Positions 15,380 through 62,300 of a DNA stretch of 64,000 bases are shown here, piece after piece (the stretch's first letter is position 1; every line of letters starts with the position of its first letter). The translations under genes and the position numbers were made by a program. A model generated the notes under the pieces. That model saw only the letters and a list, made by a program, of their open reading frames with translations, did no database searches and had not been told where the DNA came from. This DNA comes from Lepisosteus oculatus. Lineage: Eukaryota; Chordata; Actinopteri; Semionotiformes; Lepisosteidae. Location: NCBI RefSeq assembly GCF_040954835.1, contig NC_090709.1, positions 41,114,490-41,178,489 on the forward strand, in the 5' to 3' direction.

Positions 15380-15548
15380 AAGATGTGATTTCATTTTTTT
15401 TTTGATGATCAAATCTATGCAATGTAGCTGATACAAATGACCAAAGAAACCCAGCCCCACAGCGATGAATTCTGTTATAAGTGATTCAGGCCCTGCGAGA
15501 TCTCTGTCCACACTCTGCAGAGCTCCTCTCTCGGTCCGTACGGCCTCT

Positions 15549-34666: not shown

Positions 34667-35473
34667 ATGGCGGTGTGGGGCCGAGGCTGGGGGTGGGTGA
34701 GTCCTGTGTTCTCCTACCGGCCCTGGGGGGCGAAGGAGGAAGAGGAGGAGGAGGAGGAGGAGGGGATGAAGTGTGAGGCGCAGGTGAAGAGGGCGGGAGG
34801 GGGCTGGGGAGGATGGGGTTGGGGCTGGCGGAGGGTAAAGGTCGCGGGGGCGGAAGGGGGGGTCGACGAGCTGGGGGCGACCGGGGAAGAAGAGGAAGAG
34901 GAGGAGGAGGAGGAGGAGGTGGAGTGTGAGGGCGCCCCCTGGTGGCGGAGGTGGAGAGCGGCGCTCTCTCCCGCCTCCTGGCTCCGGCCCCGGCAGGAGG
35001 CGGGGAACCCTGAGGAGGAGGAGGAGGTGGCGAGGGTGGGGGCGCCCGGGGCTCCCCAGCTCCGGGGCCTGTGGCGCTCCTGGCGGGGCTCGCTGCGGCC
35101 CGAGCACTACGAGATCTGCCCCAACCTCCTGCGCCACCTCTCCGACCTGGCCCTGGCGGCCCTGCTGCGGGCCGCGGGGCCCCCGGCGCGGGCGGCGCTG
35201 GACCTGCTGGGCGTGCCCGCCGGCGCCCCGCGGCTCTGGGCCCACGGCATGGCGCTCTTCCTGGCCGCCGCGGCGGGCCTGACGCTGCTGCTGGGGCTGC
35301 TGCAGGCCTACCTGCCCCACTTCGCCCTGGCCTACGGCGCGCTGCAGGCGCTCGTCATCTCCGTCAGCCTGCGGCGGGAGAGGGGCGAGGAGGACGAGGA
35401 GGAGGAGGAGGAGGAGGTGTACCTGGACACGGAGGAGGGGCCCGGCGGAGATCTGGAGGGCAGGCCCGGGTGA
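34667..35473 (+). CDS. C6orf47: C6orf47 (G4) homologue, MHC class III protein of unknown function
   Basis: Uninterrupted coding sequence of 269 codons including stop, like the single-exon mammalian gene (about 294 aa). The chosen ATG gives MAVWGRGWGWVSP...RPWG, parallel to the human start (a short W/G/P-rich head ending in PRPWG). An in-frame ATG 99 bp upstream is less like it. The middle is low-complexity, with three Glu runs and Trp/Gly-rich linkers. The conserved C-terminal half (about residues 140-240) contains EHYEICPNLLRHLSDLA, RAALDLLGVP, LWAHGMALFLAAAAG and LPHFALAYGALQALVISVSL. The last two are hydrophobic and may enter a membrane. It ends in another acidic tract. The function of the family is unknown. 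Linkage to class I genes and SNHG32 supports the identity. Confidence 0.85.
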   Translation: MAVWGRGWGWVSPVFSYRPWGAKEEEEEEEEEGMKCEAQVKRAGGGWGGWGWGWRRVKVAGAEGGVDELGATGEEEEEEEEEEEVECEGAPWWRRWRAALSPASWLRPRQEAGNPEEEEEVARVGAPGAPQLRGLWRSWRGSLRPEHYEICPNLLRHLSDLALAALLRAAGPPARAALDLLGVPAGAPRLWAHGMALFLAAAAGLTLLLGLLQAYLPHFALAYGALQALVISVSLRRERGEEDEEEEEEEVYLDTEEGPGGDLEGRPG

Positions 35474-39360: not shown

Positions 39361-39549
39361 TCACTTCTGCCAGATGGGCTGGGCGATCTCCTGTCTCGTG
39401 TTGTCCGTGACGGAATCAAGCTTTCCCAGCCTGGTGCTGGGGACCCCAGTCCAGTGCTTCTAATAGCGGACAGCGGGTATGCTCCTGCTTCTCACCATGC
39501 GTCAAGAGAGGCAGGAGGAGGTGACGCCTCGTGGGATTCAGGTACTTGT

Positions 39550-40285
39550 GTTGTGTCCTGTGATGGACTGGTGTCCTGTCCAGGGTGTGTGTGTGTCCTG
39601 TGATGGACTGGTGTCCTGTCCAGGGTGTGTGAGTGTGTGTGTGTCCTGTGATGGACTGGTGTCCTGTCCAGGGTGTGTGAGTGTGTGTGTGTGTGTCCTG
39701 TGATGGACTGGTGTCCTGTCCAGGGTGTGTGAGGGTGTGTGTCCTGTGATGGACTGCTGTCCTGTCCAGGGTGTGTGAGTGTGTGTGTCCTGTGATGGAC
39801 TGGTGTCCTGTCCAGGGTGTGTGAGTGTGTGTCCTGTGATGGACTGGTGTCCTGTTCAAGGTGTGTGAGTGTGTGTGTCCTGTGATGGACTGGTGTCCTG
39901 TCCAGGGTGTTTGTGTGTCCTGTGATGGACTGCTGTCCTGTCCAGGGTGTGTGAGTGTGTATGTGTCCTGTGATGGACAGCTGTCCTGTCCAGGGTGTGT
40001 GAGGGTGTGTGTGTGTCCTGTGATGGACTGGTGTCCTGTCCAGGGTGTGTGTGTGTGTGTCCTGTGATGGACTGGTGTCCTGTCCAGGGTGTGTGAGTGT
40101 GTGTGAGTGTGTGCTGTGATGGACTGGTGTCCTGTCCAGGGTGTGTGAGTGTGTGTGTGTGTCCTGTGATGGACTGGTGTCCTGTCCAGGGTGTGTGTGA
40201 GTGTGTCCTGTGATGGACTGGTGTCCTGTCCAGGGTGTGTGAGTGTGTGTGTGTCCTGTGATGGACTGCTGTCCTGTCCAGGGTG
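39550..40285 (+). repeat. GTCCTGTGATGGACTGG VNTR
   Basis: About 15 copies of gtcctgtgatggactggtgt + cctgtccagggtgtgtgag(tg)n. It ends in gaaccctgccttgtgcctgt + tgcttgctgggacagactcc, the intact 3' part of the source SINE/LINE tail. This shows how the array arose inside an element copy. Confidence 0.88.
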
Positions 40286-40769: not shown

Positions 40770-42015
40770 CTCCTCCTCCTCAGATCTGTACAGGACTGGA
40801 GAGACACTCAGTCTGATCACCTCCAGCTTCACCCTCACACTCCTCCTCCTCCTCAGATCTGTACAGGACTGGAGAGACACTCAGTCTGATCACCTCCAGC
40901 TTCACCCTCACACTCCTCCTCCTCCTCAGATCTGTACAGGACTGGAGAGACACTCAGTCTGATCACCTCCAGCTTCACCCTCACACTCTTCCTCCTCCTC
41001 AGATCTGTACAGGACTGGAGAGACACTCAGTCTGATCACCTCCAGCTTCACCCTCACACTCCTCCTCCTCCTCAGATCCGTACAGGACTGGAGAGACACT
41101 CAGTCTGATCACCTCCAGCTTCACCCTCACACTCCTCCTCCTCAGATCTGTACAGGACTGGAGAGACACTCAGTCTGATCGCCTCCAGCTTCACCCTCAC
41201 ACTCCTCCTCCTCAGATCTGTACAGGACTGGAGAGACACTCAGTCTGATCGTCTCCAGCTTCACCCTCACACTCCTCCTCCTCCTCAGATCTGTACAGGA
41301 CTGGAGAGACACTCAGTCTGATCACCTCCAGCTTCACCCTCACACTCCTCCTCCTCCTCAGATCTGTACAGGACTGGAGAGACACTCAGTCTGATCACCT
41401 CCAGCTTCACCCTCACACTCTTCCTCCTCCTCAGATCTGTACAGGACTGGAGAGACACTCAGTCTGATCACCTCCAGCTTCACCCTCACACTCCTCCTCC
41501 TCCTCAGATCCGTACAGGACTGGAGAGACACTCAGTCTGATCACCTCCAGCTTCACCCTCACACTCCTCCTCCTCAGATCTGTACAGGACTGGAGAGACA
41601 CTCAGTCTGATCACCTCCAGCCTCACCCTCACACTCCTCCTCCTCCTCAGATCTGTACAGGACTGGAGAGACACTCAGTCTGATCGCCTCCAGCTTCACC
41701 CTCACACTCCTCCTCCTCCTCAGATCTGTACAGGACTGGAGAGACACTCAGTCTGATCACCTCCAGCTTCACCCTCACACTCCTCCTCCTCAGATCTGTA
41801 CAGGACTGGAGAGACACTCAGTCTGATCACCTCCAGCTTCACCCTCACACTCCTCCTCCTCAGATCTGTACAGGACTGGAGAGACACTCAGTCTGATCAC
41901 CTCCAGCTTCACCCTCACACTCCTCCTCCTCCTCCTCAGATCTGTACAGGACTGGAGAGACACTCAGTCTGATCACCTCCAGCTTCACCCTCACACTCCT
42001 CCTCCTCCTCAGATC
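40770..42015. repeat. 69-78 bp minisatellite with splice-acceptor-like units
   Basis: About 17 copies of ctcctcctcctcagatctgt + acaggactggagagacactc + agtctgatcacctccagctt + caccctcacactc. Length varies in the number of CTC triplets. Each unit has a pyrimidine tract followed by CAG. It ends 83 bp before the first coding exon of the lectin gene. Confidence 0.92.
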
Positions 42016-42097
42016 TGTAAGAATACTGTCTTGACTGTGCTTGGATGAATCTGTTTTGCAGGTGGGAAGCGTGCAGTTTGCCAGACGAGGAGAAAAG

Positions 42098-45000
42098 ATG
42101 TTCGTTTCTCTGCTGGGTGAGTCAATTCTCACTGGGGGTGGGGTGGGGGATGAATTTCTGACCTGCTCCTTCTCTTCCTGTCGAGTCACAGGGAATTTCA
42201 CAGAGATCGGCTTTCCCAGTTAGTTCCGAAGGGGAGGGAAAATGATTTTTTCGAGGCAAACCGAAGCGGGATATGACCTCCACAGCGTGCAAGTCTAATA
42301 GCACTGTGCTGTCCCGAGTCTGGCTTCTCCTGAGTCTGGCTTCGGCCTTCCCTGAGTCCCGAAAACGTCTGTGAAATTTGTTGGGCCAAACCGAATCGTC
42401 AGGGCTGCCCTGCTCTCCGCCCGCCTGCCCGTCTGCGTCTCCCTCTCGCTCCGTCCCTGTCCATCCTCCTCCGAGTCCCCCTGCATCGCGCCCGTCTGTC
42501 TCTTCCTGCCCTCGCCCCGAGCGTGCACGTCAGGCCCTGCGGGTGGAAACGCACCTGCTCTATTCAAATCCTGTTTGTCCAGGGACGGCGGCTGTCTCTC
42601 GCTTCGTAAGCAAATGGCCCGAGGTATCGATGGCCGCTAGTGGGGTTTGTTCAAGCTTTGTGATCTCAGGGAACTGCGTGTTTACCTTTCCTGCGTGATA
42701 TACGGACGTGTCTAACCTTCTTTTAACTCCTGAGCACACGCAGCAGGGAAAACAGACACTACAGGACAGGAGACACAGCGAGAGAGAGGAGATCACAGAG
42801 AATATCCCTCAGTATAAACACACACTACAGGACAGGAGACACAGCGAGAGAGAGGAGATCACAGAGAATGTCCCTCAGTTATAAACACACACAACAGGAC
42901 AAAGTGAGAGGAGATCACAGAGAATGTCCCTCAGTCATGAACACACGCAACAGGACAGGAGACACAGCGAGAGAGAGGAGACAGTACAGAAGAGGAGAGG
43001 TGAGTCCGTGCGTGAGGCTCTGAGTGACGTCGCCGATGTTGCTGACTGGGGGGCAGAGTGGCGGCTCTGTGGCTCAGGTTCTGCGCCTGTGGCTGGGAGG
43101 TTGCCGGTTCAAATCCTGTGGCAAGACCCCTTCACCCTAGCTGCTCCAGGGGGCGCCGTATAAATGGCCGACCCTGCGCTCTGACCCCCAGCTTCTCTCC
43201 CCCTGCCTGTGTGTCTCCTGGAGAGCCAGCTGGGGTCTGAGAGAAGACACGTTCCTCATGCGAGACATTGTATGGGGCCAGTAAGGCAGCGTTATCGTTA
43301 CTATTCTCATTCTTGCGTTGTCATCGTGTCTGTCCCCAGCTGCCGCCTGCCTCACTGGGGTGGCTATGCGCTCTCAGCTCTCGTCTGTCGCCACGACAAC
43401 GGCGGCCACGCCCGGCGGCGCTGGGAGAGGTGAGCGGCCCGCCGTACCGAGCTGGACGCGGGCCCGAGGCCCGGGCTGCAGGTCACGGTCCATAACCGCT
43501 CAGTCCACTAGAGGGCGGCGAGGAGCCCGGGCCTGACCTGTGTGGTGTGTGTGTGTCTAGTACAGTACATTGTACCTGTGGTACTGAGTCTCTTCAGTCT
43601 GAAGGGAGGGTCCCACACTGACAGGCTGGAGGAACTGAGTCTCTTCAGTCTGAAGGGAGGGTCCCACACTGACAGGCTGGAGGAACTGAGTCTCTTTAGT
43701 CTGAAAGGGGCGTCCCGCACTGACAGGCTGCAGAAACTGAGTCTCTTTAGTCTGAAGGGAGTGTCCCGCACCGACAGGCTGGAGGAACTGAGTCTCTTTA
43801 GTCTGAAGGGAGTGTCCCGCACTGACAGGCTGGAGGAACTGAGTCTCTTTAGTCTGAAAGGGGCGTCCCGCACTGACAGGCTACAGGAACTGAGTCTCTT
43901 CAGTCTGAAGGGAGCATCCCGCACTGACAGGCTGGAGGAACTGAGTCTCTTTTGTCTGAAGGGAGCGTCCAACACTGACAGGCTGGAGGAACTGAGTCTC
44001 TTTTGTCTGAAGGGAGCGTCCAACACTGACAGGCTGGAGGAACTGAGTCCCTTTAGTCTGGAGGGAGTCAGGACAGGAGGCTCTTCTTCACACAAGGGGT
44101 GGTGGGGGAGTGGAACAAGCCGCCCAGCCATGTCGTCGAAAAGAGCTCCTGACCGCCCCATCGGGGCAGGCGTGCCTCCTCTCGCTTGTGACCTGTCTTG
44201 TGTCCCCGTGCCCCCCCCCCCAGGCTACACGGCGTGGGTGCTGCTCCCGGAGGCCGTGACCCAGGAGAGAGCCGCGAAGGCCTGCCGGGAGGAGGGGTCG
44301 GCCCTGGCCTCCCTCCGGAGCGTGGGGGAGAACGAGTTCGTGCTGCGCTCCTTCGCGGGCGCGGCGGGCGCGTGGACCGGCCTGGCCTGGAGCAGCGGCG
44401 CGGCGCTGGAGTGGGAGTGGGCGTGGGGCGACGGCAGCCCGGCGCCGTACCGGAACTGGAGCGAGGGGGAGCCCCGGGGCCTGGCGGGGACGCCCCGCTG
44501 CGCGGAGGTGCTGCTGGGGGGCTCGCGGGCCGGAGCCTGGGGGACACTGAGCTGCAAGGAGGAGAGAGCGGCGCTGTGCAGGAGAGGTGCGGACCCCCGG
44601 ACCCCAGACTCACTGACTCACTGAACCCCAGACTCTCCGAACTCCAGACTCACTGACTCTCCGAACCCCAGACTCACTGATTCACTGACTCTCCGAACCC
44701 CAGACTCACTGACTCTCCGAACCCCAGACTCTCCGAACCCCAGACTCACTAACTCTCCGAACCCCAGACTCTCCGAACCCCAGACTCACTGACTCTCTGA
44801 ACCCCAGACTCACTTTCTCACTGACTCTCCGAACCCCAGGCTCACTGACTCACTGACTCTCCGAACCCCAGGCTCACTGACTCACTGACTCTCCGAACCC
44901 CAGGCTCACTGACTCACTGACTCTCCGAACCCCAGGCTCACTGACTCACTGACTCTCCGAACCCCAGACTCACTGACTCACTGACTCTCTGAACCCCAGA

Positions 45001-45904
45001 CTCACTGACTCTCTGAACCCCAGACTCACTGACTCTCTGAACCCCAGACTCACTGACTCTCTGAACCCCAGACTCACTTTCTCACTGACTCTCCGAACCC
45101 CAGGCTCACTGACTCACTGACTCTCCGAACCCCAGGCTCACTGACTCACTGACTCTCCGAACCCCAGACTCACTGACTCACTGACTCTCTGAACCCCAGA
45201 CTCACTGACTCTCCGAACCCCAGACTCACTGACTCTCTGAACCCCAGGCTCACTGACTCTCTGAACCCCAGGCTCACTGACTCTCTGAACCCCAGGCTCA
45301 CTGACTCACTGACTCTCCGAACCCCAGGCTCACTGACTCACTGACTCTCCGAACCCCAGGCTCACTGACTCACTGACTCACTGACTCTCTGAACCCCAGA
45401 CTCACTGACTCTCTGAACCCCAGACTCACTTTCTCACTGACTCTCCGAACCCCAGGCTCACTGACTCACTGACTCTCCGAACCCCAGGCTCACTGACTCA
45501 CTGACTCTCTGAACCCCAGGCTCACTGACTCTCCGAACCCCAGACTCACTGACTCTCCGAACCCCAGACTCACTTTCTCACTGACTCTCCGAACCCCAGA
45601 CTCACTGACTCACTGACTCTCCGAACCCCAGGCTCACTGACTCACTGACTCTCCGAACCCCAGACTCACTGACTCACTGACTCTCCGAACCCCAGACTCA
45701 CTTTCTCACTGACTCTCCGAACCCCAGGCTCACTGACTCACTGACTCTCCGAACCCCAGGCTCACTGACTCACTGACTCTCCGAACCCCAGGCTCACTGA
45801 CTCACTGACTCTCCGAACCTCGGACACACTGACACATTGATTTACTTGCTGGCACACTGAGTGCCAAAATATTCCCTACATGCACCTGTTCACTCCTGTA
45901 TAAC

Positions 45905-45973
<69 letters not shown>

Positions 45974-46582
45974 ACAGATGTGATTCCGACTTCCTCTACA
46001 GAGGTGATGTCCTCCAGTGCCGAGCTCACCGAACCCACTGAACCCACCGAACCCACCACCACTCCCACAGGTAGGACCACTGCTGGGCCCAAACTCTCTG
46101 TCCTCCAGTACCCTGTCCCAGCGTCCTCGAGCTTGAAGGCCCTGCTGCCTCACAGCGCTGGGGCCCTCAGTTCAGTTCCTGGGGTGCTGTCTGTGTGGAG
46201 TCTGCATGTTCTCCCTGCGTTCGTATGGGTTTCCTCCCACAGTCCAGAGACAGGCTGGTGGGTTAATTGGCTTCTGGGTGAACTTGCTCTGGTGTGTGTG
46301 TGTGTGTCCTGTGATGGACTGGTGTCCTGTCCAGGGTGTGTGAGTGTGTGTGTGTGTGTCCTGTGATGGACTGCTGTCCTGTCCAGGGTGTGTGAGTGTG
46401 TGTGTGTGTCCTGTGATGGACTGCTGTCCTGTCCAGGGTGTGTGAGTGTGTGTGTGTCCTGTGATGGACTGGTGTCCTGTCCAGGGTGTGTGTGTGTGTG
46501 TGTGTGTGTCCTGTGATGGACTGGTGTCCTGTCCAGGGTGTGTGTGTGTGTGTGTGTCCTGTGATGGACTGGTGTCCTGTCC

Positions 46583-46628
<46 letters not shown>

Positions 46629-47134
46629 TGTGATGGACTGCTGTCCTGTCCAGGGTGAGCCCTGCCTTGTGCCTGTTGCTTGCTGGGACAGAGGACTGAT
46701 GCCCCCCTCTCTGTCTCTCAGCAGGCAGCGGCAGTACCACCCCGGCCCGCCAGGGGGCGCTGTACCTGGTGACGCCGGGGCTGCCCTGGGCGCAGGCGCG
46801 CCTCTACTGCGAGCGGCGGCTCGGCGGGGGGCTGGCGGCCGCGCCGGACCCCCCGTCCCAGCAGCGCCTGGCCCGCTTCCTCGGCAACCAGACGGCGGGG
46901 CCGGGCCGGTTCTGGATCGGCCTGCGCTGGGCCGCGCTGCCCTCCCGCTGGGTCTGGGCCGGCGGGCCGGCGGGGGCGGACATCGCCGGCTGGGCTCCCG
47001 GGCAGCCGCGCCGGGAGGGCGCCGGGATGTGCGCCGCCGCCGGGGGAGGAGGCGGGTTCGCCCTGGCCAGCGAGTGCTGCGCCACCCGCCTGCCCTTCGT
47101 CTGCTGCGGGTCCGAGCCGGGCGGAGTCCTGTAG
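42098..47134 (+). CDS. Secreted protein with two C-type lectin-like domains
   Basis: Five coding exons, all phase 1, join to 324 codons plus stop: 42098-42116, 43340-43429, 44224-44586, 45978-46070 and 46725-47134. Exons 1 and 2 together encode a signal peptide (MFVSLLAAACLTGVAM), then a Thr/Ala linker (SSVATTTAATPGG). Exon 3 is a whole CTLD: YTAWVLLPEAVTQERAAKAC, WTGLAWSS, YRNWSEGEP, CAEVL, LSCKEERAALC. Exon 4 is a mucin-like linker (TEPTEPTEPTTTPT). Exon 5 is a second CTLD: ARLYCERRL, FWIGLRW, WAPGQP, ECCATRLPFVC, with an NQT glycosylation site. Neither domain keeps EPN/QPD or WND (EPR and WGT in the first; QPR and no WND in the second), so calcium-dependent sugar binding is unlikely. No membrane span or GPI signal is seen. 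C-type lectins of NK type lie in the chicken MHC, but those are type II membrane proteins. No name can be given. A SINE tail supplies AATAAA at 47451. Confidence 0.85.
42760..42985. repeat. About 75-bp tandem repeat, three copies
   Basis: Copies contain aggacaggagacacagcgag, agagaggagatcacagagaa and tccctcagt(a/t)ataaacac. It lies in intron 1 of the lectin gene. Confidence 0.8.
43043..43240 (+). mobile_element. tRNA-derived SINE
   Basis: Head gtggcggctctgtggctcag (A-box-like), B box ggttcaaatcc (43107-43117), then body gctccagggggcgccgtata and ctgacccccagcttctctcc. Same family as 4944-5151. It lies in intron 1 of the lectin gene. Confidence 0.78.
43583..44110. repeat. LINE-derived 51-bp minisatellite joined to LINE C-terminus
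   Basis: About nine 51-bp units (family of 90-1198 and 21.5-22.3 kb). They run directly into gtcaggacaggaggctcttc + ttcacacaaggggtggtggg + gagtggaacaagc, the next part of the same LINE ORF end (FFTxRVVGVWNK). This copy therefore links the two repeat families to one source element. It lies in intron 2 of the lectin gene. Confidence 0.9.
44600..45830. repeat. Short-period minisatellite (ctctccgaaccccagactcactga)
   Basis: About 50 short units built from ctctccgaaccccag(a/g) and ctcactga in different combinations, 20-36 bp each. It starts 14 bp after the exon 3 donor and fills most of intron 3 of the lectin gene. Confidence 0.92.
45905..45971. repeat. (GT)n microsatellite
   Basis: About 31 uninterrupted GT dinucleotides. 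It directly precedes the acceptor (tacacag) of lectin exon 4, in place of a normal pyrimidine tract. Confidence 0.95.
46150..46700 (+). mobile_element. SINE/LINE tail with internal VNTR expansion
   Basis: Intact left part (gtgtggagtctgcatgttct, gtttcctcccacagtccaga, gtgggttaattggcttctgg) is followed by seven gtcctgtgatggactg units, then the intact right part (gagccctgccttgtgcctgt). This shows the whole source element around its expanded core. It lies in intron 4 of the lectin gene. Confidence 0.85.
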
Positions 47135-47399
47135 CCTCGCCGCAGAAACAACGAACGGCCGCATTTACGAAACGAATTTGTCGATAATTCAGGCGGCATT
47201 TTGCTCTGCGTGTTTTTTCTTACTTACGATATATTCGCGACGTCTCCCGTTCAGATGGCCAATAGATGCGTCACATCGTGTTGACAAGTTTTTTAAAAAA
47301 AGTTATTTCCTTCTGTAGCTCCATTAGTGCTTCAGATGTATGTGCCCTCTATATATTGTCATTGCGTTTGATCCGGTGGATTCTTCTTATTTATTGTTG

Positions 47400-47475
47400 T
47401 TTTCGTCCTGTCAAGCGCTGTGAGAAGCCACCTTTAAAGGCGCTATATAAAATAAAGTTGATTATTCTTCCACAT
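47400..47475 (+). mobile_element. SINE/LINE 3' tail supplying a poly(A) signal
   Basis: agcgctgtgagaagccacct + ttaaaggcgctatataaaat + aaagttgattatt. AATAAA is at 47451-47456, 317 nt after the lectin stop codon. Confidence 0.6.
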
Positions 47476-47744
47476 GTCTTTTCAGCGGGTCTTCCGCAAA
47501 ACTGGGATGTGGCGTACAGCCAGACTGGGAACCGTGTGCTCGTTCCTCATGGGATTTCTGAGCAAACGGAGCAAAAACCAGGAACGAGTGTCACGCCTAG
47601 ATCTAGTGTTTAACCCCTCGATGTGAAATCGTTTCAGATCTGTCTTAAGCCCTTATGTGACCTTTCTCTGAAACACTTGGATTAAAAACAAACGCACACG
47701 AACATGTCTGCTTCAGGAGTGTCTGCGAGCGCAGTTCAGTCACA

Positions 47745-48110
47745 GTCACCGGCTTTAGGTTTTTGGGAATTCACGTCTCTAAAGACCTAACCTGGACTGT
47801 GAACACTGACTCTATCATGAAGAAGGCTCAGCAGCGCCTTTATTTCTTGAGGTGCCTCAAGCGATGGGGGATGCCAGTACCTGTGTTGGTGAACTTCTAC
47901 CGCTGCACTATCGAGAGCGTCCTCACCAACGGGATCACCGTGGGGTACGGCAACACCTCTTCCCGAGAAAGAAAGGCACTGCAGAGAATGGTCAATATGG
48001 CCCAGAAGATCATCGGCTGCGGTCTCACCGAGATTAAACAGCTCTATGAGGACCGCTGCCGTGGTAGAATTCTGGCCATCACAGAGGACAGTCACCACCC
48101 CGGTATGATG
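47745..48110 (+). mobile_element. LINE ORF2 C-terminal fragment
   Basis: An open frame encodes FLGIHVSKDLTWTVNTDS, KKAQQRLYFLRCLKRWGMPV, NFYRCTIESVLTNGITVGYG, RKALQRMVNMAQKIIGCGL and CRGRILAITEDSHHPG. This is the characteristic end of fish non-LTR retrotransposon reverse transcriptases (L2/Rex-like). It is 5' truncated; the reading frame is preserved, so insertion is recent. It is followed by a GT-rich low-complexity tract to about 48470. Confidence 0.88.
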
Positions 48111-48475
48111 TGTGCGTGTCAGCGTGTGTGTGTTGGCGTGCCGGTGTGTGTGGTTTTTGAGTGTGTCAGTGTGTGTGATGTGTGTGTGGTTTATGAGTGT
48201 GTGTGCGTGTGTCGGTGTGTGTGGTTTATGAGTGTGTGTGCGTGTGTCAGCGTGTGTGTGGTTTATGAGTGTGTGTGCGTGTGTCAGCGTGTGTGTGGTT
48301 TATGAGTGTGTGTGTGTGTCGGTGTGTGTGTGATGTGTGCGTGTGTCAGCCTGTGTCGGTGTGTGGTTTATGAGTGTGTATCAGCGTGTGTAGATCATGA
48401 GTGTGTGTGCGTGTGTATCAGCGCGTGTAGATCATGAGTGTGTGTGCGTGTGTATCAGCGCGTGTGCGTGGGTTG
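48111..48475. repeat. GT-rich minisatellite
   Basis: About 24-36 bp units of gtgtgtggtttatgagtgtg + tgtgcgtgtgtcag(c), directly following the LINE fragment. Confidence 0.8.
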
Positions 48476-48584
48476 GACCCACCTCTGTGCGCCTCGTACA
48501 GCAGGGGGGTGACCAGGATGAAGAAGATGGAGGTCATAGACACGTGGATGACCCAGGGCAGGCACTGTGGCAGGCATGCCGCTC

Positions 48585-49150
48585 TGGACAGGACACCAGT
48601 CCATCACAGGACAATTACACACTCACACACCCTGGACAGGACAGCAGTCCATCACAGGACACACACACTCACACACCCTGGACAGGACAGCAGTCCATCA
48701 CAGGACACACTCACACACACACCCTGGACAGGACAGCAGTCCATCACAGGACACACACACACACTCACACACCCTGGACAGGACAGCAGTCCATCACAGG
48801 ACACACACACACACACACACACACTCACACACCCTGGACAGGACAGCAGTCCATCACAGGACACACACACTCACACACCCTGGACAGGACAGCAGTCCAT
48901 CACAGGACACACTCACACACACACCCTGGACAGGACAGCAGTCCATCACAGGACACACACACACACTCACACACCCTGGACAGGACAGCAGTCCATCACA
49001 GGACACACACACACACACACACACTCACACACCCTGGACAGGACAGCAGTCCATCACAGGACACACACTCACATACCCTGGACAGGACAGCAGTCCATCA
49101 CAGGACACACACACCCACACACACACACACACACACACGCACACACACAA
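48585..49150 (-). repeat. GTCCTGTGATGGACTGC VNTR
   Basis: About ten copies of ccatcacaggacacac...ccctggacaggacagcagt. A block of about 245 bp is repeated almost exactly (48660-48845 and 48860-49050), a higher-order duplication. Confidence 0.88.
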
Positions 49151-49439
49151 GACCACCATCAGTCTAGATCCCACATAGTATCTGCTGCACTGGAAAAGGG
49201 GTTCGAGACTCCTGACAGTCGTCAACATTGCTGGAATAACATCAAGAGGATGTAGGTGCACTAACCCGCCCCTGGGTCTTCAGAATCGCTGGGGCCTGTG
49301 AAGACAAACTTTACAGCGCTTTTAGGGCTTCACAACAACAACAACAACAACAACAACAGCTGTGTGTGTGTGTGTGTGTGTGTCCTGTGATGGACTGGTG
49401 TCCTGTCCAGGGTGTGTGAGTGTGTGTGTCCTGTGATTG

Positions 49440-49565
49440 ACAGTTGCCCAGCCCTGTGGTTGAAGCCGATACCCTGGCTTCTCTCCAGACACAGCTGGGT
49501 GAGCTCCTCCAGTCAGGACAGGGGGCTCTTCTGTACACAGAGGGGGGTGGGGGTGGGGAACAAGT
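49440..49565 (+). repeat. LINE-derived repeat, single unit
   Basis: One unit of the 18.96-kb family: gttgaagccgataccctggc ... ctcctccagtcaggacaggg ... ggggtggggaacaag. Confidence 0.85.
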
Positions 49566-49679
49566 TCTCTCTGGACAGCGAGGTCTGCCTGTGGCCAGTT
49601 CCTGTGGCCAGGCTGTGGTCACTGAACCTGTTTCTCTCTGCTGTCTCTTACTCTGATCCGATGCTGTGGTAGTGTATTT

Positions 49680-50520
49680 TGTCCGTTAAGGATGTTGTGG
49701 TCTGGGATCAATGACGAATGTAGTTCCAAAGCGGAACGGGTGGGCACGGCTAAAAACTACATGTCCCAGAATGCACCGTTCGCGAAGGCTGTCGGGAAGG
49801 ACATTGTGCAAACTGACCAGTAACCGTTCACGAAAGAGACGCTTCGCCGTCAGGCGGCGGTCGTGTAGCGGCTGTTGATGGCGAAGCCCAGACGGAGTCG
49901 GAGGACCGAGGGGAACTCAAAACTAAGGATAAACCGCGGTAAAGGCGGCTGTTTCCAGCCCGGGACCGGAGTTTGCGGCCTGAGGCCGATGCGGGGACGG
50001 GGGGTTTGCGGCTGAAGGTGTCTGAGGCGGGTCGGTCCTCCGGGAGCGCGCAGCTCTAACGGCCGCCCGAATTCAAAACCCGCCCCGCGGGGTCGCGCGC
50101 GCACGCACGCACGCCCTTCCCGGCTCCTCCCCGGAAACAGGAAGTGTCGCCGGTGGCGGGAAGGGGCGGGAGCGGAGCTGTAGGAGAGGAACGTTTCCGC
50201 AGCGGAAAAAAGACGACGTGTCGTTTCGCTTTTTACCCGCGGCTTAAAAAAAATTATAGAGAACTAATAAAAGATGGCGGAGGGACCTCCCCTGAGGTCT
50301 CAACGCGCCACGAAAACGTTTGTCCAGGTTTAACAGGTCAGGGGCGGACTTTGCCGAGTCAGAAATTTCCGCGTTCAGCAACAACGCGGAGAAACGCAGC
50401 GAGAGCAGCCGGCTGTGGACGGAGGAGACGATGGACACAGACGGTCACGACGTCCAAGCAGCAGGAGCAGCTCTGTGGAAAGCTCAGGCCTGGGCCGCCA
50501 CAGGACAGAGACTCCGGGGA
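49680..50520. promoter_or_regulatory. CpG island with ZNF143/Staf-type motif
   Basis: The sequence ACTACATGTCCCAGAATGCA (49756-49775) closely matches the ZNF143 (Staf) SBS motif ACTACAnnTCCCAGnATGC, common at vertebrate promoters, often divergent ones. Downstream are many CpGs, gaaacaggaagtg (ETS, about 50135-50147) and ggggcggg (Sp1, about 50163). A small ORF begins at 50273 (MAEGPPLRSQRATKTFVQV) and another at 50430. No complete gene can be built, as a satellite begins at 50525. It may be the promoter and first exon of a gene whose rest lies beyond the satellites. Confidence 0.45.
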
Positions 50521-50524
50521 CATC

Positions 50525-53195
50525 GCTTTTAAAGGTCCTGTCGTTCACACACTGGACACTACAGCCTCGATAAGACAGCAGCCCACTGGACACGACACCC
50601 ACAGGTCCTGACGTTCACACACTGGACACTACAGCCTCGATAAGACAGCAGCCCACTGGACACGACGCCCACAGGTCCTGACGTTCACACACTGGACACT
50701 ACAGCCTTGATAAGACAGCAGCCCACTGGACACGACACCCACAGGTCCTGACGTTCACACACTGGACTGGACACTACAGCCTCGATAAGACAGCAGCCCA
50801 CTGGACACGACACCCACAGGTCCTGACGTTCACACACTGGACACTACAGCCTCGATAAGACAGCAGCCCACTGGACACGACACCCACAGGTCCTGACGTT
50901 CACACACTGGACACTACAGCCTTGATAAGACAGCAGCCCACTGGACACGACGCCCACAGGTCCTGACGTTCACACACTGGACACTACAGCCTTGATAAGA
51001 CAGCAGCCCACTGGACACGACACCCACAGGTCCTGACGTTCACACACTGGACACTACAGCCTCGATAAGACAGCAGCCCACTGGACACGACGCCCTCAGG
51101 TCCTGACGTTCACACACTGGACACTACAGCCTTGATAAGACAGCAGCCCACTGGACACGACGCCCACAGGTCCTGACGTTCACACACTGGACTGGACACT
51201 ACAGCCTCGATAAGACAGCAGCCCACTGGACACGACTCCCACAGGTCCTGACGTTCACACACTGGACACTACAGCCTTGATAAGACAGCAGCCCACTGGA
51301 CACGACGCCCACAGGTCCTGACGTTCACACACTGGACACTACAGCCTCGATAAGACAGCAGCCCACTGGACACGACGCCCACAGGTCCTGACGTTCACAC
51401 ACTGGACACTACAGCCTTGATAAGACAGCAGCCCACTGGACACGACACCCACAGGTCCTGACGTTCACACACTGGACACTACAGCCTCGATAAGACAGCA
51501 GCCCACTGGACATGACGCCCACAGGTCCTGACGTTCACACACTGGACTGGACACTACAGCCTCGATAAGACAGCAGCCCACTGGACACGACGCCCACAGG
51601 TCCTGACGTTCACACACTGGACACTACAGCCTCGATAAGACAGCAGCCCACTGGACACGACACCCACAGGTCCTGACGTTCACACACTGGACACTACAGC
51701 CTCGATAAGACAGCAGCCCACTGGACACGACACCCACAGGTCCTGACGTTCACACACTGGACACTACAGCATCGATAAGACAGCAGCCCACTGGACATGA
51801 CACCCACAGGTCCTGACGTTCACACACTGGACACTACAGCCTCGATAAGACAGCAGCCCACTGGACACGACACCCACAGGTCCTGACGTTCACACACTGG
51901 ACACTACAGCCTCGATAAGACAGCAGCCCACTGGACACGACGCCCTCAGGTCCTGACGTTCACACACTGGACTGGACACTACAGCCTCGATAAGACAGCA
52001 GCCCACTGGACACGACGCCCACAGGTCCTGACGTTCACACAATGGACAGGACACTACAGCCTCGATAAGACAGCAGCCCACTGGACACAGTGCCCACAGG
52101 TCCTGACATTCACACACTGGACACTACAGCCTCGATAAGACAGAAACCCACTGGACACGACGCCCACAGGTCCTGACGTTCACACACTGGATTGGACACT
52201 ACAGCCTCGATAAGACAGCAGCCCACTGGACACGACATCCTCAGGTCCTGACATTCACACACTGGACACTACAGCCTCGATAAGACAGCAGCCCACTGGA
52301 CACGACGCCCACAGGTCCTGACGTTCACACACTGGACACTATAGCTTCGATAAGACAGAAACCCACTGGACATGACACCCACAGGTCCTGACGTTCACAC
52401 ACTGGACACTACAGCGTCGATAAGACAGAAACCCACTGGACACGACGCCCACAGGTCCTGACATTCACACACTGGATTGGACACTACAGCCTCGATAAGA
52501 CAGCAGCCCACTGGACACGACACCCACAGGTCCTGACGTTCACACACTGGACACTACAGCCTCGATAAGACAGCAGCCCACTGGACACGACGCCCTCAGG
52601 TCCTGACGTTCACACACTGGACTGGACACTACAGCCTCGATAAGACAGCAGCCCACTGGACACGACACCCACAGGTCCTGACGTTCACACACTGGACACT
52701 ACAGCCTCGATAAGACAGCAGCCCACTGGACACGACACCCACAGGTCCTGACGTTCACACACTGGACTGGACACTACAGCCTCGATAAGACAGCAGCCCA
52801 CTGGACACGACGCCCACAGGTCCTGACGTTCACACACTGGACACTACAGCCTCGATAAGACAGCAGCCCACTGGACACGACGCCCTCAGGTCCTGACGTT
52901 CACACACTGGACACTACAGCCTCGATAAGACAGAAGCCCACTGGACACGACACCCACAGGTCCTGACGTTCACACACTGTACACTACAGCCTCGATTAGA
53001 CAGCAGCCCACTGGACACGACGCCCTCAGGTCCTGACGTTCACACACTGGACTGGACACTACAGCCTCGATAAGACAGCAGCCCACTGGACACGACGCCC
53101 ACAGGTCCTGACGTTCACACACTGGACACTACAGCCTCGATAAGACAGCAGCCCACTGGACACGACGCCCACAGGTCCTGACGTTTACACACTGG
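50525..53195. repeat. About 72-bp satellite array
   Basis: About 37 copies of aggtcctgacgttcacacac + tggacactacagcctcgata + agacagcagcccactggaca + cgacgcccac. Some units carry an extra 'actgg' (ggactggacac), spaced at irregular multiples. Variants tcg/ttg, cga(c/t)gccc(a/t)c and cagaaaccc mark subfamilies. Confidence 0.95.
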
Positions 53196-53330
53196 ACGCT
53201 GCAGATGGTGGAGATGGTAGTTGTGTCCCTATGGAGAGGACGATGTAGCCAGGGATCTGGGAAAGCCTGGGAGAATCCCAAGAAGATCCGAGGGAGGTGA
53301 GAGTTGTGGACCTGGTAAGTCAAGGCTGGT
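53196..53330. other. Single-copy junction between two satellites
   Basis: About 135 bp (ctgcagatggtggagatggt ... gtggacctggtaagtcaagg) resembling neither array. It contains ggaggtgagag and ctggtaagt, two donor-like motifs. Confidence 0.5.
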
Positions 53331-56300
53331 GTACGGAGGACTGTGTTTGGATGTTTGAGGAGATTGAATAATCTGAGGAATCAGGTGCTCGTAGTCCTCT
53401 GTGATTGAAGCTTATTCACTGTGCTGGTCTGTGACTGCACTGTGATCTATTTGCTGTGCTGGTATGTGGCTACACTGTGATCTATTTGCTGTTCTGGTCT
53501 GTAACTGCACTGGGATCTATTTGCTGTGCTGATCTGTGGCTATACTACGATCTATTTGCTGTCCATGTCTGTGATTACACTGGGATCTATTCACAGTGAT
53601 GTTCAGTGACTACGATGGGATCTATTCAAGGTGATGTTCAGTGACTGCACTGTGATCTACTCACTGTGCTGGTCTGTGTCTGCACTGTGATCTATTTGCT
53701 GTGCTGGTCTGTGTCTGCACTGTGATCTACTCACTGGGCTGGACTGTGTCTGCACTGTGATCTATTTGCTGTGCTGGTCTGTGTCTGCACTGTGATCTAC
53801 TCACTGGGCTGGACTGTGTCTGCACTGTGATCTACTCACTGGGCTGGTCTGTGACTGCACTGGGATCTACTCACTGGGCTGCTCTGTGACTGCACTGGGA
53901 TCTACTCACTGGGCTGCTCTGTGACTGCACTGGGATCTACTCACTGGGCTGCTCTGTGACTGCACTGGGATCTACTCACTGGGCTGCTCTGTGACTGCAC
54001 TGGGATCTACTCACTGGGCTGCTCTGTGACTGCACTGGGATCTATTTGCTGTGCTGGTATGTGGCTACACTGTGATCTATTTGCTGTTCTGGTCTGTAAC
54101 TGCACTGGGATCTATTTGCTGTGCTGATCTGTGGCTATACTACGATCTATTTGCTGTCCATGTCTGTGATTACACTGGGATCTATTCACAGTGATGTTCA
54201 GTGACTACGATGGGATCTATTCAAGGTGATGTTCAGTGACTGCACTGTGATCTACTCACTGTGCTGGTCTGTGTCTGCACTGTGATCTATTTGCTGTGCT
54301 GGTCTGTGTCTGCACTGTGATCTACTCACTGGGCTGGACTGTGTCTGCACTGTGATCTACTCACTGGGCTGGTCTGTGACTGCACTGGGATCTACTCACT
54401 GGGCTGCTCTGTGACTGCACTGGGATCTACTCACTGGGCTGCTCTGTGACTGCACTGGGATCTACTCACTGGGCTGCTCTGTGACTGCACTGGGATCTAC
54501 TCACTGGGCTGCTCTGTGACTGCACTGGGATCTATTTGCTGTGCTGGTATGTGGCTACACTGTGATCTATTTGCTGTTCTGGTCTGTAACTGCACTGGGA
54601 TCTATTTGCTGTGCTGATCTGTGGCTATACTACGATCTATTTGCTGTCCATGTCTGTGATTACACTGGGATCTATTCACAGTGATGTTCAGTGACTACGA
54701 TGGGATCTATTCAAGGTGATGTTCAGTGACTGCACTGTGATCTACTCACTGTGCTGGTCTGTGACTGCACTGGGATCTCTTTTTGCTGTTCTGGTCTGTG
54801 GCTATACTACAATCTATTTGCTGTCCATGTCTGTGATTACACTGGGATCTATTCACAGTGATGTTCAGTGACTACGATGGGATCTATTCAAGGTGATGTT
54901 CAGTGACTGCACTGTGATCTACTCACTGTGCTGGTCTGAGACTGCACTGTGATCTATTTGCTGTGCTGGTCTGTGTCTGCACTGTGATCTACTCACTGGG
55001 CTGGACTGTGTCTGCACTGTGATCTACTCACTGGGCTGGTCTGTGACTGCACTGGGATCTACTCACTGGGCTGCTCTGTGACTGCACTGGGATCTACTCA
55101 CTGGGCTGCTCTGTGACTGCACTGGGATCTACTCACTGGGCTGCTCTGTGACTGCACTGGGATCTATTTGCTGTGCTGGTATGTGGCTACACTGTGATCT
55201 ATTTGCTGTTCTGGTCTGTAACTGCACTGGGATCTATTTGCTGTGCTGATCTGTGGCTATACTACGATCTATTTGCTGTCCATGTCTGTGATTACACTGG
55301 GATCTATTCACAGTGATGTTCAGTGACTACGATGGGATCTATTCAAGGTGATGTTCAGTGACTGCACTGTGATCTACTCACTGTGCTGGTCTGTGTCTGC
55401 ACTGTGATCTATTTGCTGTGCTGGTCTGTGTCTGCACTGTGATCTACTCACTGGGCTGGACTGTGTCTGCACTGTGATCTACTCACTGGGCTGGTCTGTG
55501 ACTGCACTGGGATCTACTCACTGGGCTGCTCTGTGACTGCACTGGGATCTACTCACTGGGCTGCTCTGTGACTGCACTGGGATCTACTCACTGGGCTGCT
55601 CTGTGACTGCACTGGGATCTACTCACTGGGCTGCTCTGTGACTGCACTGGGATCTATTTGCTGTGCTGGTATGTGGCTACACTGTGATCTATTTGCTGTT
55701 CTGGTCTGTAACTGCACTGGGATCTATTTGCTGTGCTGATCTGTGGCTATACTACGATCTATTTGCTGTCCATGTCTGTGATTACACTGGGATCTATTCA
55801 CAGTGATGTTCAGTGACTACGATGGGATCTATTCAAGGTGATGTTCAGTGACTGCACTGTGATCTACTCACTGTGCTGGTCTGTGACTGCACTGGGATCT
55901 CTTTTTGCTGTTCTGGTCTGTGGCTATACTACAATCTATTTGCTGTCCATGTCTGTGATTACACTGGGATCTATTCACAGTGATGTTCAGTGACTACGAT
56001 GGGATCTATTCAAGGTGATGTTCAGTGACTGCACTGTGATCTACTCACTGTGCTGGTCTGTGACTGCACTGGGATCTACTCACTGGGCTGGTCTGTGACT
56101 GCACTGGGATCTACTCACTGGGCTGCTCTGTGACTGCACTGGGATCTACTCACTGGGCTGCTCTGTGACTGCACTGTGATCTCTTTTTGCTGTTCTGGTC
56201 TGTGACTACACTGTGATCTATTTGCTGTTCTGTTCTGTGACTGCACTGGGATCTATTTGCTGTGCTGATCTGTGGCTATACTACGATCTATTTGCTATCC

Positions 56301-59300
56301 ATGTCTGTGATTACACTGGGATCTATTCACAGTGATGTTCAGTGACTACGATGGGATCTATTCGCTGTGCTGGTCTGTGATTACACTGGGATCTATTTGC
56401 TGTGCTGGTCTGTGACTACACTGGGATCTCTTTTTGCTGTTCTGGTCTGTGACTACACTGGGATCTATTTGCTGTGCTGGTCTGTGACTACACTGGGATC
56501 TATTTGCTGTGCTGGTCTGTGACTACACTGGGATCTACTCACTGTGCTGGTCTGTGACTGCACTGTGATCTACTCACTGGGCTGGTCTGTGACTGCACTG
56601 GGATCTCTTTTTGCTGTTCTGGTCTGTGGCTATACTACAATCTATTTGCTGTCCATGTCTGTGATTACACTGGGATCTATTCACAGTGATGTTCAGTGAC
56701 TACGATGGGATCTATTCAAGGTGATGTTCAGTGACTGCACTGTGATCTACTCACTGTGCTGGTCTGTGTCTGCACTGTGATCTATTTGCTGTGCTGGTCT
56801 GTGTCTGCACTGTGATCTACTCACTGGGCTGGACTGTGTCTGCACTGTGATCTACTCACTGGGCTGGTCTGTGACTGCACTGGGATCTACTCACTGGGCT
56901 GCTCTGTGACTGCACTGGGATCTACTCACTGGGCTGCTCTGTGACTGCACTGGGATCTATTTGCTGTGCTGGTATGTGGCTACACTGTGATCTATTTGCT
57001 GTTCTGGTCTGTAACTGCACTGGGATCTATTTGCTGTGCTGATCTGTGGCTATACTACGATCTATTTGCTGTCCATGTCTGTGATTACACTGGGATCTAT
57101 TCACAGTGATGTTCAGTGACTACGATGGGATCTATTCAAGGTGATGTTCAGTGACTGCACTGTGATCTACTCACTGTGCTGGTCTGAGACTGCACTGTGA
57201 TCTATTTGCTGTGCTGGTCTGTGTCTGCACTGTGATCTACTCACTGGGCTGGACTGTGTCTGCACTGTGATCTACTCACTGGGCTGCTCTGTGACTGCAC
57301 TGGGATCTACTCACTGGGCTGCTCTGTGACTGCACTGGGATCTACTCACTGGGCTGCTCTGTGACTGCACTGGGATCTACTCACTGGGCTGCTCTGTGAC
57401 TGCACTGTGATCTCTTTTTGCTGTTCTGGTCTGTGACTACACTGTGATCTATTTGCTGTTCTGTTCTGTGACTGCACTGGGATCTATTTGCTGTGCTGAT
57501 CTGTGGCTATACTACGATCTATTTGCTATCCATGTCTGTGATTACACTGGGATCTATTCACAGTGATGTTCAGTGACTACGATGGGATCTATTCGCTGTG
57601 CTGGTCTGTGATTACACTGGGATCTATTTGCTGTGCTGGTCTGTGACTACACTGGGATCTCTTTTTGCTGTTCTGGTCTGTGACTGCACTGGGATCTATT
57701 TGCTGTGCTGGTCTGTGACTACACTGGGATCTATTTGCTGTGCTGGTCTGTGACTACACTGGGATCTACTCACTGTGCTGGTCTGTGACTGCACTGTGAT
57801 CTACTCACTGGGCTGGTCTGTGACTGCACTGGGATCTCTTTTTGCTGTTCTGGTCTGTGGCTATACTACAATCTATTTGCTGTCCATGTCTGTGATTACA
57901 CTGGGATCTATTCACAGTGATGTTCAGTGACTACGATGGGATCTATTCAAGGTGATGTTCAGTGACTGCACTGTGATCTACTCACTGTGCTGGTCTGTGT
58001 CTGCACTGTGATCTATTTGCTGTGCTGGTCTGTGTCTGCACTGTGATCTACTCACTGGGCTGGACTGTGTCTGCACTGTGATCTACTCACTGGGCTGGTC
58101 TGTGACTGCACTGGGATCTACTCACTGGGCTGCTCTGTGACTGCACTGGGATCTGTTTGCTGTGCTGGTCTATGACTACACTGTGATCTATTTGCTGTTC
58201 TGTTCTGTGATTGCACTGGGATCTATTTGCTGTGCTGATCTGTGGCTATACTCCGATCTATTTGCTGTCCATGTCTGTGATTACACTGGGATCTATTCAC
58301 AGTGATGTTCAGTGACTACGATGGGATCTATTCACAGTGATGTTCATTGACTGCACTGTGATCTACTCACTGTGCTGGTCTGTGGCTGCACTGTGATCTA
58401 TTCGCTGTGCTGGTCTGTGACTGCACTGTGATATTACTCACTGGGCTGGTCTGTGACTGCACTGGGATCTCTTTTTGCTGTGCTGGTCTTTGACTACTCT
58501 GGGATCTATTCGCTGTGCTGGTCTGTGACTGCACTGGGATCTCTTTTTGCTGTGCTGGTCTGTGACTACTCTGGGATCTACTCGCTCTGCTGGTCTGTGA
58601 CTGCTCTGGGATCTACTCCCTCTGCTGGTCTGTGACTGCTCTGGGATCTATTTGCTGTGCTGGTCTGTGTCTGCACTGTGATCTACTCACTGGGCTGGTC
58701 TGTGTCTGCACTGTGATCTACTCACTGGGCTGGTCTGTGACTGCACTGGGATCTACTCACTGGGCTGGTCTGTGACTGCACTGGGATCTCTTTTTGCTGT
58801 TCTGGTCTGTGGCTATACTACGATCTATTTGCTATCCATGTCTGTGATTACGCTGGGATCTATTCACGGTGATGTTCAGTGACTACGCTGGGATCTATTT
58901 GGTGTGGTGGTCTGTGATTACACTGGGATCTATTCGCTGTGCTGGTCTGTGACTACACTGGGATCTACTCGCTGTGCTGGTCTGTGACTACTCTGGGATC
59001 TACTCGCTGTGCTGATCTGTGACCACACTGGAATCTATTGGCTGTCCTGGTCTGTGACTACTCTGGGATCTACTCACTGTCTTGGTCTGTGACTGCACTG
59101 GGATCTATTTACTCTGTTGGTCTGTGACTGTACTGGGATCTACTCACTGTGCTGGTCTGTGACTGCACTGGGATCTATTCACTGTGCTTGTCTGTGACTG
59201 CACTGTGATCTCTTTTTGCTGTGCTGATCTGTGGCTATACTACGATCAATTTGCTGTGCATGTCTGTGATTACGCTGGGATCTACTTGCTGTGCAGGTCT

Positions 59301-62300
59301 GTGACTGCACTGTGATCTACTCACTGGGCTGGTCTGTGACTGCACTGTGATCTACTCACTGGGCTGGTCTGTGACTGCACTGTGATCTATTTGCTGTGCA
59401 TGTTTGTGATGACGCTGGGATCTATTCACGGTGATGTTCAGTGACTACGATGGGATCTATTCGCTGTGCAGGTCTGTGACTACACTGGGATCTACTCACT
59501 GTGCTGGTCTGTGACTGCTCTGGGATCTACTCGCTGTGCTGGTCTGTGACTGCTCTGGGATCTACTCGCTGTGCTGGTCTGTGACTGCTCTGGGATCTAC
59601 TCGCTGTGCTGGTCTGTGACTGCACTGATCTACTCGCTGTGCTGGTCTGTGACTGCACTGTGATCTGTTCACCGTGGTGGTCTGTGATTACTCTGGGATC
59701 TACTTGCTGTGCTGGTCTGTGACTGCGCTGGGATCTATTCACTGTGCTTGTCTGTGACTGCACTGTGATCTCTTTTTGCTGTGCTGATCTGTGGCTATAC
59801 TACGATCAATTTGCTGTGCATGTCTGTGATTACGCTGGGATCTACTTGCTGTGCAGGTCTGTGACTATTCTGGGATCTACTCACTGTGCTGGTCTGTGAC
59901 TGCACTGTGATCTACTCACTGGGCTGGTCTGTGACTGCTCTGGGATCTACTCACTGTGCTGGTCTGTGACTGCTCTGGGATCTACTCGCTGTGCTGGTCT
60001 GTTAGTGCACTGGGATCTACTCGCTGTGCTGGTCTGTGACTACTCTGGGATCTACTCGCTGTGCTGATCTGTGACCACACTGGAATCTATTGGCTGTCCT
60101 GGTCTGTGACTACTCTGGGATCTACTCACTGTCTTGGTCTGTGACTGCACTGGGATCTATTTACTCTGTTGGTCTGTGACTGTACTGGGATCTACTCACT
60201 GTGCTGGTCTGTGACTGCACTGGGATCTATTCACTGTGCTTGTCTGTGACTGCACTGTGATCTCTTTTTGCTGTGCTGATCTGTGGCTATACTACGATCA
60301 ATTTGCTGTGCATGTCTGTGATTACGCTGGGATCTACTTGCTGTGCAGGTCTGTGACTGCACTGTGATCTACTCACTGGGCTGGTCTGTGACTGCACTGT
60401 GATCTACTCACTGGGCTGGTCTGTGACTGCACTGTGATCTATTTGCTGTGCATGTTTGTGATGACGCTGGGATCTATTCACGGTGATGTTCAGTGACTAC
60501 GATGGGATCTATTCGCTGTGCAGGTCTGTGACTACACTGGGATCTACTCACTGTGCTGGTCTGTGACTGCTCTGGGATCTACTCACTGTGCTGGTCTGTG
60601 ACTGCTCTGGGATCTACTCGCTGTGCTGGTCTGTGACTGCTCTGGGATCTACTCGCTGTGCTGGTCTGTGACTGCTCTGGGATCTACTCGCTGTGCTGGT
60701 CTGTGACTGCTCTGGGATCTACTCGCTGTGCTGGTCTGTGACTGCACTGTGATCTGTTCACCGTGGTGGTCTGTGATTACTCTGGGATCTACTCACTGTG
60801 CTGGTCTGTGACTGCACTGGGATCTATTCACTGTGCTTGTCTGTGACTGCACTGTGATCTCTTTTTGCTGTGCTGATCTGTGGCTATACTACGATCAATT
60901 TGCTGTGCATGTCTGTGATTACGCTGGGATCTACTTGCTGTGCAGGTCTGTGACTGCACTGTGATCTACTCACTGGGCTGGTCTGTGACTGCACTGTGAT
61001 CTACTCACTGGGCTGGTCTGTGACTGCACTGTGATCTATTTGCTGTGCATGTTTGTGATGACGCTGGGATCTATTCACGGTGATGTTCAGTGACTACGCT
61101 GGGATCTATTTGGTGTGCTGGTCTGTGATTACACTGGGATCTATTCGCTGTGCTGGTCTGTGACTACACTGGGATCTATTCGCTGTGCTGGTCTGTTAGT
61201 GCACTGGGATCTACTCGCTGTGCTGGTCTGTGACTACTCTGGGATCTACTCGCTGTGCTGATCTGTGACCACACTGGAATCTATTGGCTGTCCTGGTCTG
61301 TGACTACTCTGGGATCTACTCACTGTCTTGGTCTGTGACTGCACTGGGATCTATTTACTCTGTTGGTCTGTGACTGTACTGGGATCTACTCACTGTGCTG
61401 GTCTGTGACTGCACTGGGATCTATTCACTGTGCTTGTCTGTGACTGCACTGTGATCTCTTTTTGCTGTGCTGATCTGTGGCTATACTACGATCAATTTGC
61501 TGTGCATGTCTGTGATTACGCTGGGATCTACTTGCTGTGCAGGTCTGTGACTGCACTGTGATCTACTCACTGGGCTGGTCTGTGACTGCACTGTGATCTA
61601 CTCACTGGGCTGGTCTGTGACTGCACTGTGATCTATTTGCTGTGCATGTTTGTGATGACGCTGGGATCTATTCACGGTGATGTTCAGTGACTACGATGGG
61701 ATCTATTCGCTGTGCAGGTCTGTGACTACACTGGGATCTACTCACTGTGCTGGTCTGTGACTGCTCTGGGATCTACTCGCTGTGCTGGTCTGTGACTGCT
61801 CTGGGATCTACTCGCTGTGCTGGTCTGTGACTGCTCTGGGATCTACTCGCTGTGCTGGTCTGTGACTGCACTGATCTACTCGCTGTGCTGGTCTGTGACT
61901 GCACTGTGATCTGTTCACCGTGGTGGTCTGTGATTACTCTGGGATCTACTTGCTGTGCTGGTCTGTGACTGCACTGGGATCTATTCACTGTGCTTGTCTG
62001 TGACTGCACTGTGATCTCTTTTTGCTGTGCTGATCTGTGGCTATACTACAATCAATTTGCTGTGCATGTCTGTGATTACGCTGGGATCTACTTGCTGTGC
62101 AGGTCTGTGACTATTCTGGGATCTACTCACTGTGCTGGTCTGTGACTGCACTGTGATCTACTCACTGGGCTGGTCTGTGACTGCTCTGGGATCTACTCGC
62201 TGTGCTGGTCTGTGACTGCACTGTGATCTACTCACTGGGCTGGTCTGTGACTGCACTGTGATCTACTCACTGGGCTGGTCTGTGACTGCACTGTGATCTA

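Follow-up and report, generated by a model that had tools for sequence, protein, structure and literature searches.

The locus described here raises the question of what kind of protein is encoded where two C-type lectin-like domains (CTLDs) lie close together in the DNA of Lepisosteus oculatus, and whether their position in the major histocompatibility complex (MHC) is connected with the function of that protein. The DNA analyzed is a stretch of 64,000 nucleotides of contig NC_090709.1 (positions 41,114,490 to 41,178,489), referred to below as the window. The initial annotation had read the locus as an undescribed secreted double C-type lectin-like protein and had related it to the lectin-like natural killer (NK) receptors. 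It was found that a predicted secreted double-CTLD protein, without calcium motifs and inside the MHC, is retained from that interpretation, whereas the word "undescribed" and the tie to NK receptors are not. The reading preferred here, to which a probability of roughly 0.55 is given, is a functional gene of five exons whose product would be a secreted two-CTLD protein similar to those of the fish group F1, which would have lost the calcium ligands in both domains and would bind non-calcium ligands.

As shown in Table 1, the gene model consists of five predicted exons on the forward strand, with lengths of 19, 90, 363, 93, and 410 nt, which splice to one open frame of 324 residues with AG/GT borders and introns that are all phase 1. 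GC content by codon position is 0.675/0.667/0.958 in the CTLD1 exon and 0.756/0.711/0.963 in the CTLD2 exon; for comparison with the third-position value of 0.96, the overall GC is 0.56–0.58 in introns 1, 2, and 4. Because composition shuffles of the two CTLD exons often stay open at such GC (16% and 32% of 2000, respectively), the open frame alone is weak evidence, and the case for these exons is therefore carried by the domain matches together with the codon-position signal; the two CTLD exons are beyond chance. The earlier description of two CTLDs, each in a single phase 1 exon, agrees with the Pfam matches, the exon borders, and the frame, and its Thr/Pro/Glu linker was also recovered, with the linker exon now refined to 45978–46070. 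A gene for a secreted, calcium-independent double-CTLD protein is probably real.

Both domains match the Lectin_C profile (PF00059) of the CTLD superfamily above its curated cut-off of 22.6 bits, CTLD1 with 51.8 bits (E 1.6e-13) and CTLD2 with 30.0 bits (E 9e-7), and the framework cysteines of the C1–C4 and C2–C3 pairs are kept in both. CTLD1 is a short-form CTLD with four framework cysteines (Cys 57, 129, 147, and 155); in CTLD2 they are Cys 217, 291, 306 or 307, and 315 or 316, and two extra cysteines beside C3 and C4 could possibly form an additional bridge or a dimer contact. The canonical motifs of sugar-binding CTLDs are EPN and WND. At the corresponding calcium/sugar positions, the alignments give EPR and WGT in CTLD1, and QPR with nothing resembling WND in CTLD2, as the initial annotation had stated in noting that these motifs are absent from both domains. 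Each domain contains one N-glycosylation sequon, NWS in CTLD1 and NQT in CTLD2, and the linker is probably O-glycosylated. The predicted order is leader, CTLD1, linker, and CTLD2, and the secreted protein would have about 300 residues and a mass of roughly 31 kDa.

To find the leader, possible start codons and splice sites 5′ of CTLD1 were enumerated. With starts at or after 42000, the filters left two two-exon models, and the chosen one has a hydrophobic core with a mean hydropathy of 2.49 versus −1.55. A less strict donor threshold admitted eight one-exon models at or after 36000, one of which has a leader-like core at 42273–42366 (1.85) and another at 39497–39584 (2.15). The two-exon leader is the better model for the signal peptide proposed earlier and is likely as drawn, on the strength of splice prediction alone and with one-exon alternatives beside it; reading its N-terminal hydrophobic core as a cleavable leader is likewise prediction only. 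No membrane anchor was found in the spliced frame, where the highest 19-residue mean hydropathy is 1.44, which supports the earlier claim of a missing anchor within the frame, with the caveat that hydrophobic stretches occur 3′ of the stop codon. Over some 120 nt at the stop, local GC drops from 0.77 to 0.42, and GC by codon position after it is 0.47/0.45/0.51, so that the coding signal is gone directly 3′ of the stop.

The affinities of the two domains were examined through their nearest solved structures in the PDB. The CTLD1 query comprised leader, CTLD1, and linker, with the best 60 of 119 matches listed; for CTLD2, the best 60 of 68 were listed, and groups were assigned by molecule name. 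Among these matches, chains of the mannose receptor family (group VI: DEC-205, MRC1, PLA2R) have the highest total scores for both domains. For CTLD1, this lead is a total over many domains: DEC-205 gives E 2.4e-35 in total, yet its best single domain scores 27.4 bits. The closest single-CTLD chain to the CTLD1 query is CL-P1, with 50.0 bits, followed by mannose receptor CTLDs, langerin, and CD23, and L-selectin scores 34.2 bits; CTLD2 also matches CD23 and lithostathine. The mannose receptor family consists of large membrane receptors that contain cysteine-rich and fibronectin II domains in addition to many CTLDs, whereas the protein predicted here has two CTLDs and no anchor.

It has been reported by Zelensky and Gready (2004) that fish possess soluble dual-CTLD proteins, group F1, with members FDC-F1 to F7 in Fugu and zebrafish (PMC514892). 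Group F1 proteins are soluble, have two or three CTLDs, were initially taken as fragments of mannose receptors, and are backed by three zebrafish cDNAs (PMC514892); for carp, a 2019 study lists genes that encode two or three CTLDs but no transmembrane segment (PMC6400144). The likeness of the present gene to group F1, as judged from the published description of that group, is that its predicted product is also soluble, has two CTLDs and no transmembrane domain, and resembles mannose receptor CTLDs. However, calcium/sugar residues in at least one CTLD have been reported for all fish F1 members (PMC514892), and the protein predicted here has them in neither. Because these residues are absent, the layout is described as F1-like and the protein is not filed as F1. 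Because the F1 layout was already published in 2004 (PMC514892), "undescribed" was too strong for this kind of protein; what is unusual is that the gene lies in an MHC and that the calcium residues are gone, and no mention of MHC linkage of F1 genes was found in the available sections of that paper.

Table 1. Coordinates of the predicted lectin gene, its neighbors, and repeats in the window.
Feature	Position	Strand	Basis or detail
Exon 1: start codon and 6 leader residues (only whole codons)	42098–42116	+	Splice enumeration; phase 1 donor GTGAGT
Exon 2: remaining leader and short Thr/Ala/Gly-rich stretch	43340–43429	+	Acceptor CAG, donor GTGAGC, 90 nt, phase 1-1
Exon 3: CTLD1	44224–44586	+	Phase 1-1; Pfam PF00059, PDB matches
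Exon 4: Thr/Ser/Pro/Glu linker DVIPTSSTEVMSSSAELTEPTEPTEPTTTPTG	45978–46070	+	Phase 1-1; AG/GT borders and frame
Exon 5: CTLD2 and stop codon TAG	46725–47134	+	Pfam PF00059, PDB matches, composition drop at stop
MHC class I gene: alpha1 19549–19812, alpha2 17647–17913, alpha3 16425–16715	16425–19812	−	Pfam, PDB
C6orf47 homologue (DUF4661), 268-residue open frame from first Met	34667–35473	+	Pfam PF15576, E 1.9e-15
Minisatellite, 5′ flank of lectin gene	40770–42019		73 bp unit
Minisatellite, intron 2	43583–44067		51 bp unit
Minisatellite, intron 3	44647–45840		32 bp unit
Minisatellite, intron 4	46292–46610		Unit of about 50 bp
Retroelement-like frame, just downstream of lectin gene	47661–48302	+	
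Satellite array	50533–53204		70-bp units
Satellite array, to window end	53413–64000		35-bp units, about 300 copies

The MHC location of the lectin gene is well supported because a class I gene and the class III gene C6orf47 are found nearby, at 22.3 kb (measured from the alpha-1 exon) and 6.6 kb, respectively, in agreement with the setting proposed in the initial annotation. The class I gene matches MHC_I with 3.3e-10 in its alpha2 peptide and C1-set with 8.5e-15 in its alpha3 peptide; a transmembrane exon follows alpha3 near 16100, and the leader exon was not located. The distance of about 20 kb given earlier is close to the measured one, but a single class I gene was seen in the window where several had been implied. 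For this gene (15500–19900, − strand), the closest solved chains are those of MR1, with 152.7 bits, the next other class I chain scoring 130.5, and MR1 or MR1 fusions make up the first 13 of the best 60 of 408 matches. By eye, several of its peptide-anchor positions look non-classical. The C6orf47 homologue has acidic repeats in one open frame. In human, C6orf47 is a gene of MHC class III with one coding exon, and surveys from 2005 and 2006 failed to detect it in zebrafish or frog (PMC1309616, PMC1654159). The class III region of bowfin and reedfish includes psmb10, with MHC-I genes close to it (PMC10751288), an arrangement that would fit a mixed class I and class III neighborhood here. A secreted double-CTLD gene inside an MHC was not found in the available sections of the MHC literature, including PMC10751288, PMC8423624, and PMC4364491, nor in those of PMC7862078, PMC1309616, and PMC12619710, a coverage that leaves aside the supplementary gene lists in which a lectin gene might be named.

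The window contains 471 open frames, and 252 passed a filter of 62 unmasked residues, by which shorter exons are missed; 220 of these were scanned singly against Pfam in sets of 123 and 97. The other 32 consisted of 27 frames from the class I region, two from C6orf47 and the strand opposite it, and three at the CTLD exons, one of these antisense. No further CTLD or other convincing cellular gene was found in the 220 frames scanned. The 123-frame set gave four matches to families from bacteria, archaea, and phages, none better than E 0.0011; these were taken as chance, as were two of three matches in the 97-frame set (E 0.0095 and 0.014). Two whole reading frames of 36.0–50.4 kb, translated with stops as X, had no Pfam match up to E 0.05; since CTLD2, which lies in one of them, was missed as well, this outcome is put down to the length and repetitiveness of the query and is not counted as a negative. 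One open frame in the right half of the window matches ALKBH8_N with 7.8e-18, and we infer that it is the retroelement-like frame listed in Table 1; this Pfam label can be matched by LINE elements. When the window was searched by TBLASTN with its own two domains for extra CTLD exons, nothing below E 0.18 was found beyond self matches and weak mutual ones (E 0.13 and 0.048), and Rfam gave no match at gathering scores. Three introns of the lectin gene (2, 3, and 4) contain minisatellites, as does its 5′ flank; at the score threshold used, none was found in intron 1. Satellite arrays were observed farther to the right.

Several observations weigh against the reading of a functional F1-like gene. 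The gene model is a prediction from genomic sequence alone; its leader is split over two exons, the first of just 19 nt; third-position GC is weaker in the short exons (exon 2, 0.759; linker exon, 0.633); and the departure from group F1 in the calcium/sugar residues, described above, counts in the same direction. Between CTLD1 and CTLD2 there is a 49-residue local match only (BLASTP, E 2e-4), the AlphaFold model of CTLD2 from a single sequence has a mean pLDDT of 36.7 and is unusable for fold comparison, and the weak score of CTLD2 (30 bits), its richness in glycine and alanine, and its extra cysteines would fit decay too. Such decay belongs to the explanation that the locus is a decaying or non-expressed F1-type copy, locally duplicated into the MHC, in which calcium loss and an odd CTLD2 would reflect relaxed selection. 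Both calcium sites are lost and CTLD2 is of low complexity, as this would predict, and the minisatellites in three introns and the 5′ flank, as well as the retroelement-like frame just downstream, also speak for it. However, all five predicted exons are open with AG/GT borders, third-position GC is near 0.96 in both CTLD exons, and both framework cysteine pairs are kept in both domains, so that a decaying copy is considered unlikely. A hydrophobicity scan of all three frames of 44587–50500, which returned 17 rows, mostly translated GT repeats, bears on a different possibility, namely that these are exons of a membrane receptor, which would gain its transmembrane segment through alternative splicing or in haplotypes that differ near the stop. 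Just 3′ of the stop, an out-of-frame, transmembrane-like hydrophobic stretch (47178–47234, +) reaches a hydropathy of 1.93, a value matched by only 10 of 400 shuffles of 200 nt, and a weaker in-frame stretch past the stop reaches 1.71. However, 107 of 400 shuffles of 600 nt attain 1.93 as well, the codon-position GC is lost after the stop, and F1 proteins are soluble (PMC514892); both stretches are read as untranslated because of their composition, and a membrane receptor is regarded as rather improbable.

Group V NK receptors are type II membrane proteins whose CTLD is split over several exons, as are the chicken B-NK and B-lec receptors, which also have multi-exon CTLDs. The chicken genes lie inside an MHC, as the present gene does, but the domains in the window are not close to group V among the matches listed, and the chicken parallel therefore spans different CTLD branches. 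By name, no group V chain was found for CTLD1 in the best 60 of 119 matches, in which one row has no telling name, and one was found for CTLD2 in the best 60 of 68 (KLRB1B, 21.2 bits). The spliced protein, with its hydropathy maximum of 1.44, is also predicted not to be a type II membrane protein. It might still be supposed that the gene branched off, as a soluble form, from the lectin-like NK receptors and their ligands in an ancestral region shared with the MHC, with class I or a related molecule as ligand. The MHC location, the class I gene 22 kb away, and the lack of calcium motifs, as in group V, would agree with such a relative of the NK complex, and a published proposal treats the MHC and the NK complex as originally one region (PMC5002281). 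However, among the matches listed the CTLDs come closest to domains of the group II, III, and VI types, and the gene differs in layout from those of group V in that a predicted leader is followed by CTLDs with a single phase 1 exon each. An origin from group V was rejected on the sequence matches listed and on gene layout, and the tie to NK receptors claimed in the initial annotation was not borne out; an NK complex relative is considered highly improbable. An origin independent of the NK lineage can also be imagined from the selectins, in which the CTLD is a single phase 1 exon and the protein also contains EGF and sushi domains together with a membrane anchor. None of these accompanying parts was found in the spliced frame or among the Pfam matches of the 97 frames between 29.1 and 53.4 kb, a search in which EGF-sized exons fall under the length filter. 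The Fugu selectin CTLD is encoded by a 5′ exon, and NLSLH, a novel L-selectin homologue at 1q25.1, is predicted to be soluble and without sugar motifs (PMC514892), as is the protein considered here, but it has one CTLD. The gene could thus be imagined as an ancient MHC resident, the 6p21-type copy of those genes with a single-exon CTLD, the selectins and NLSLH, that lie on MHC-paralogous human 1q, descended from a proto-MHC CTLD gene that existed before the genome duplications and later lost calcium binding to become a soluble factor co-inherited with class I; this is considered very improbable.

The preferred reading remains an F1-like gene of a mannose-receptor-like branch in which both domains have lost their calcium ligands. 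Its protein would be released from the cell, with the linker holding the two CTLD heads apart, and these heads may attach to proteins, or to other ligands that need no calcium, on host cells, in the matrix, or on microbes, such that the protein could serve in solution as a recognition or adaptor molecule with two heads. The link to class I is positional only, and a functional tie is not supported by the present results. If only one lineage has the gene in its MHC, the gene would be a member of a fast-evolving fish family that was inserted there locally, and would be of little wider importance. Should the gene prove to be expressed and to be kept in the MHC of further fish species, its product would be a secreted innate factor inherited together with class I genes, and the MHC would have a second type of CTLD gene beside the NK-type pair of the chicken.

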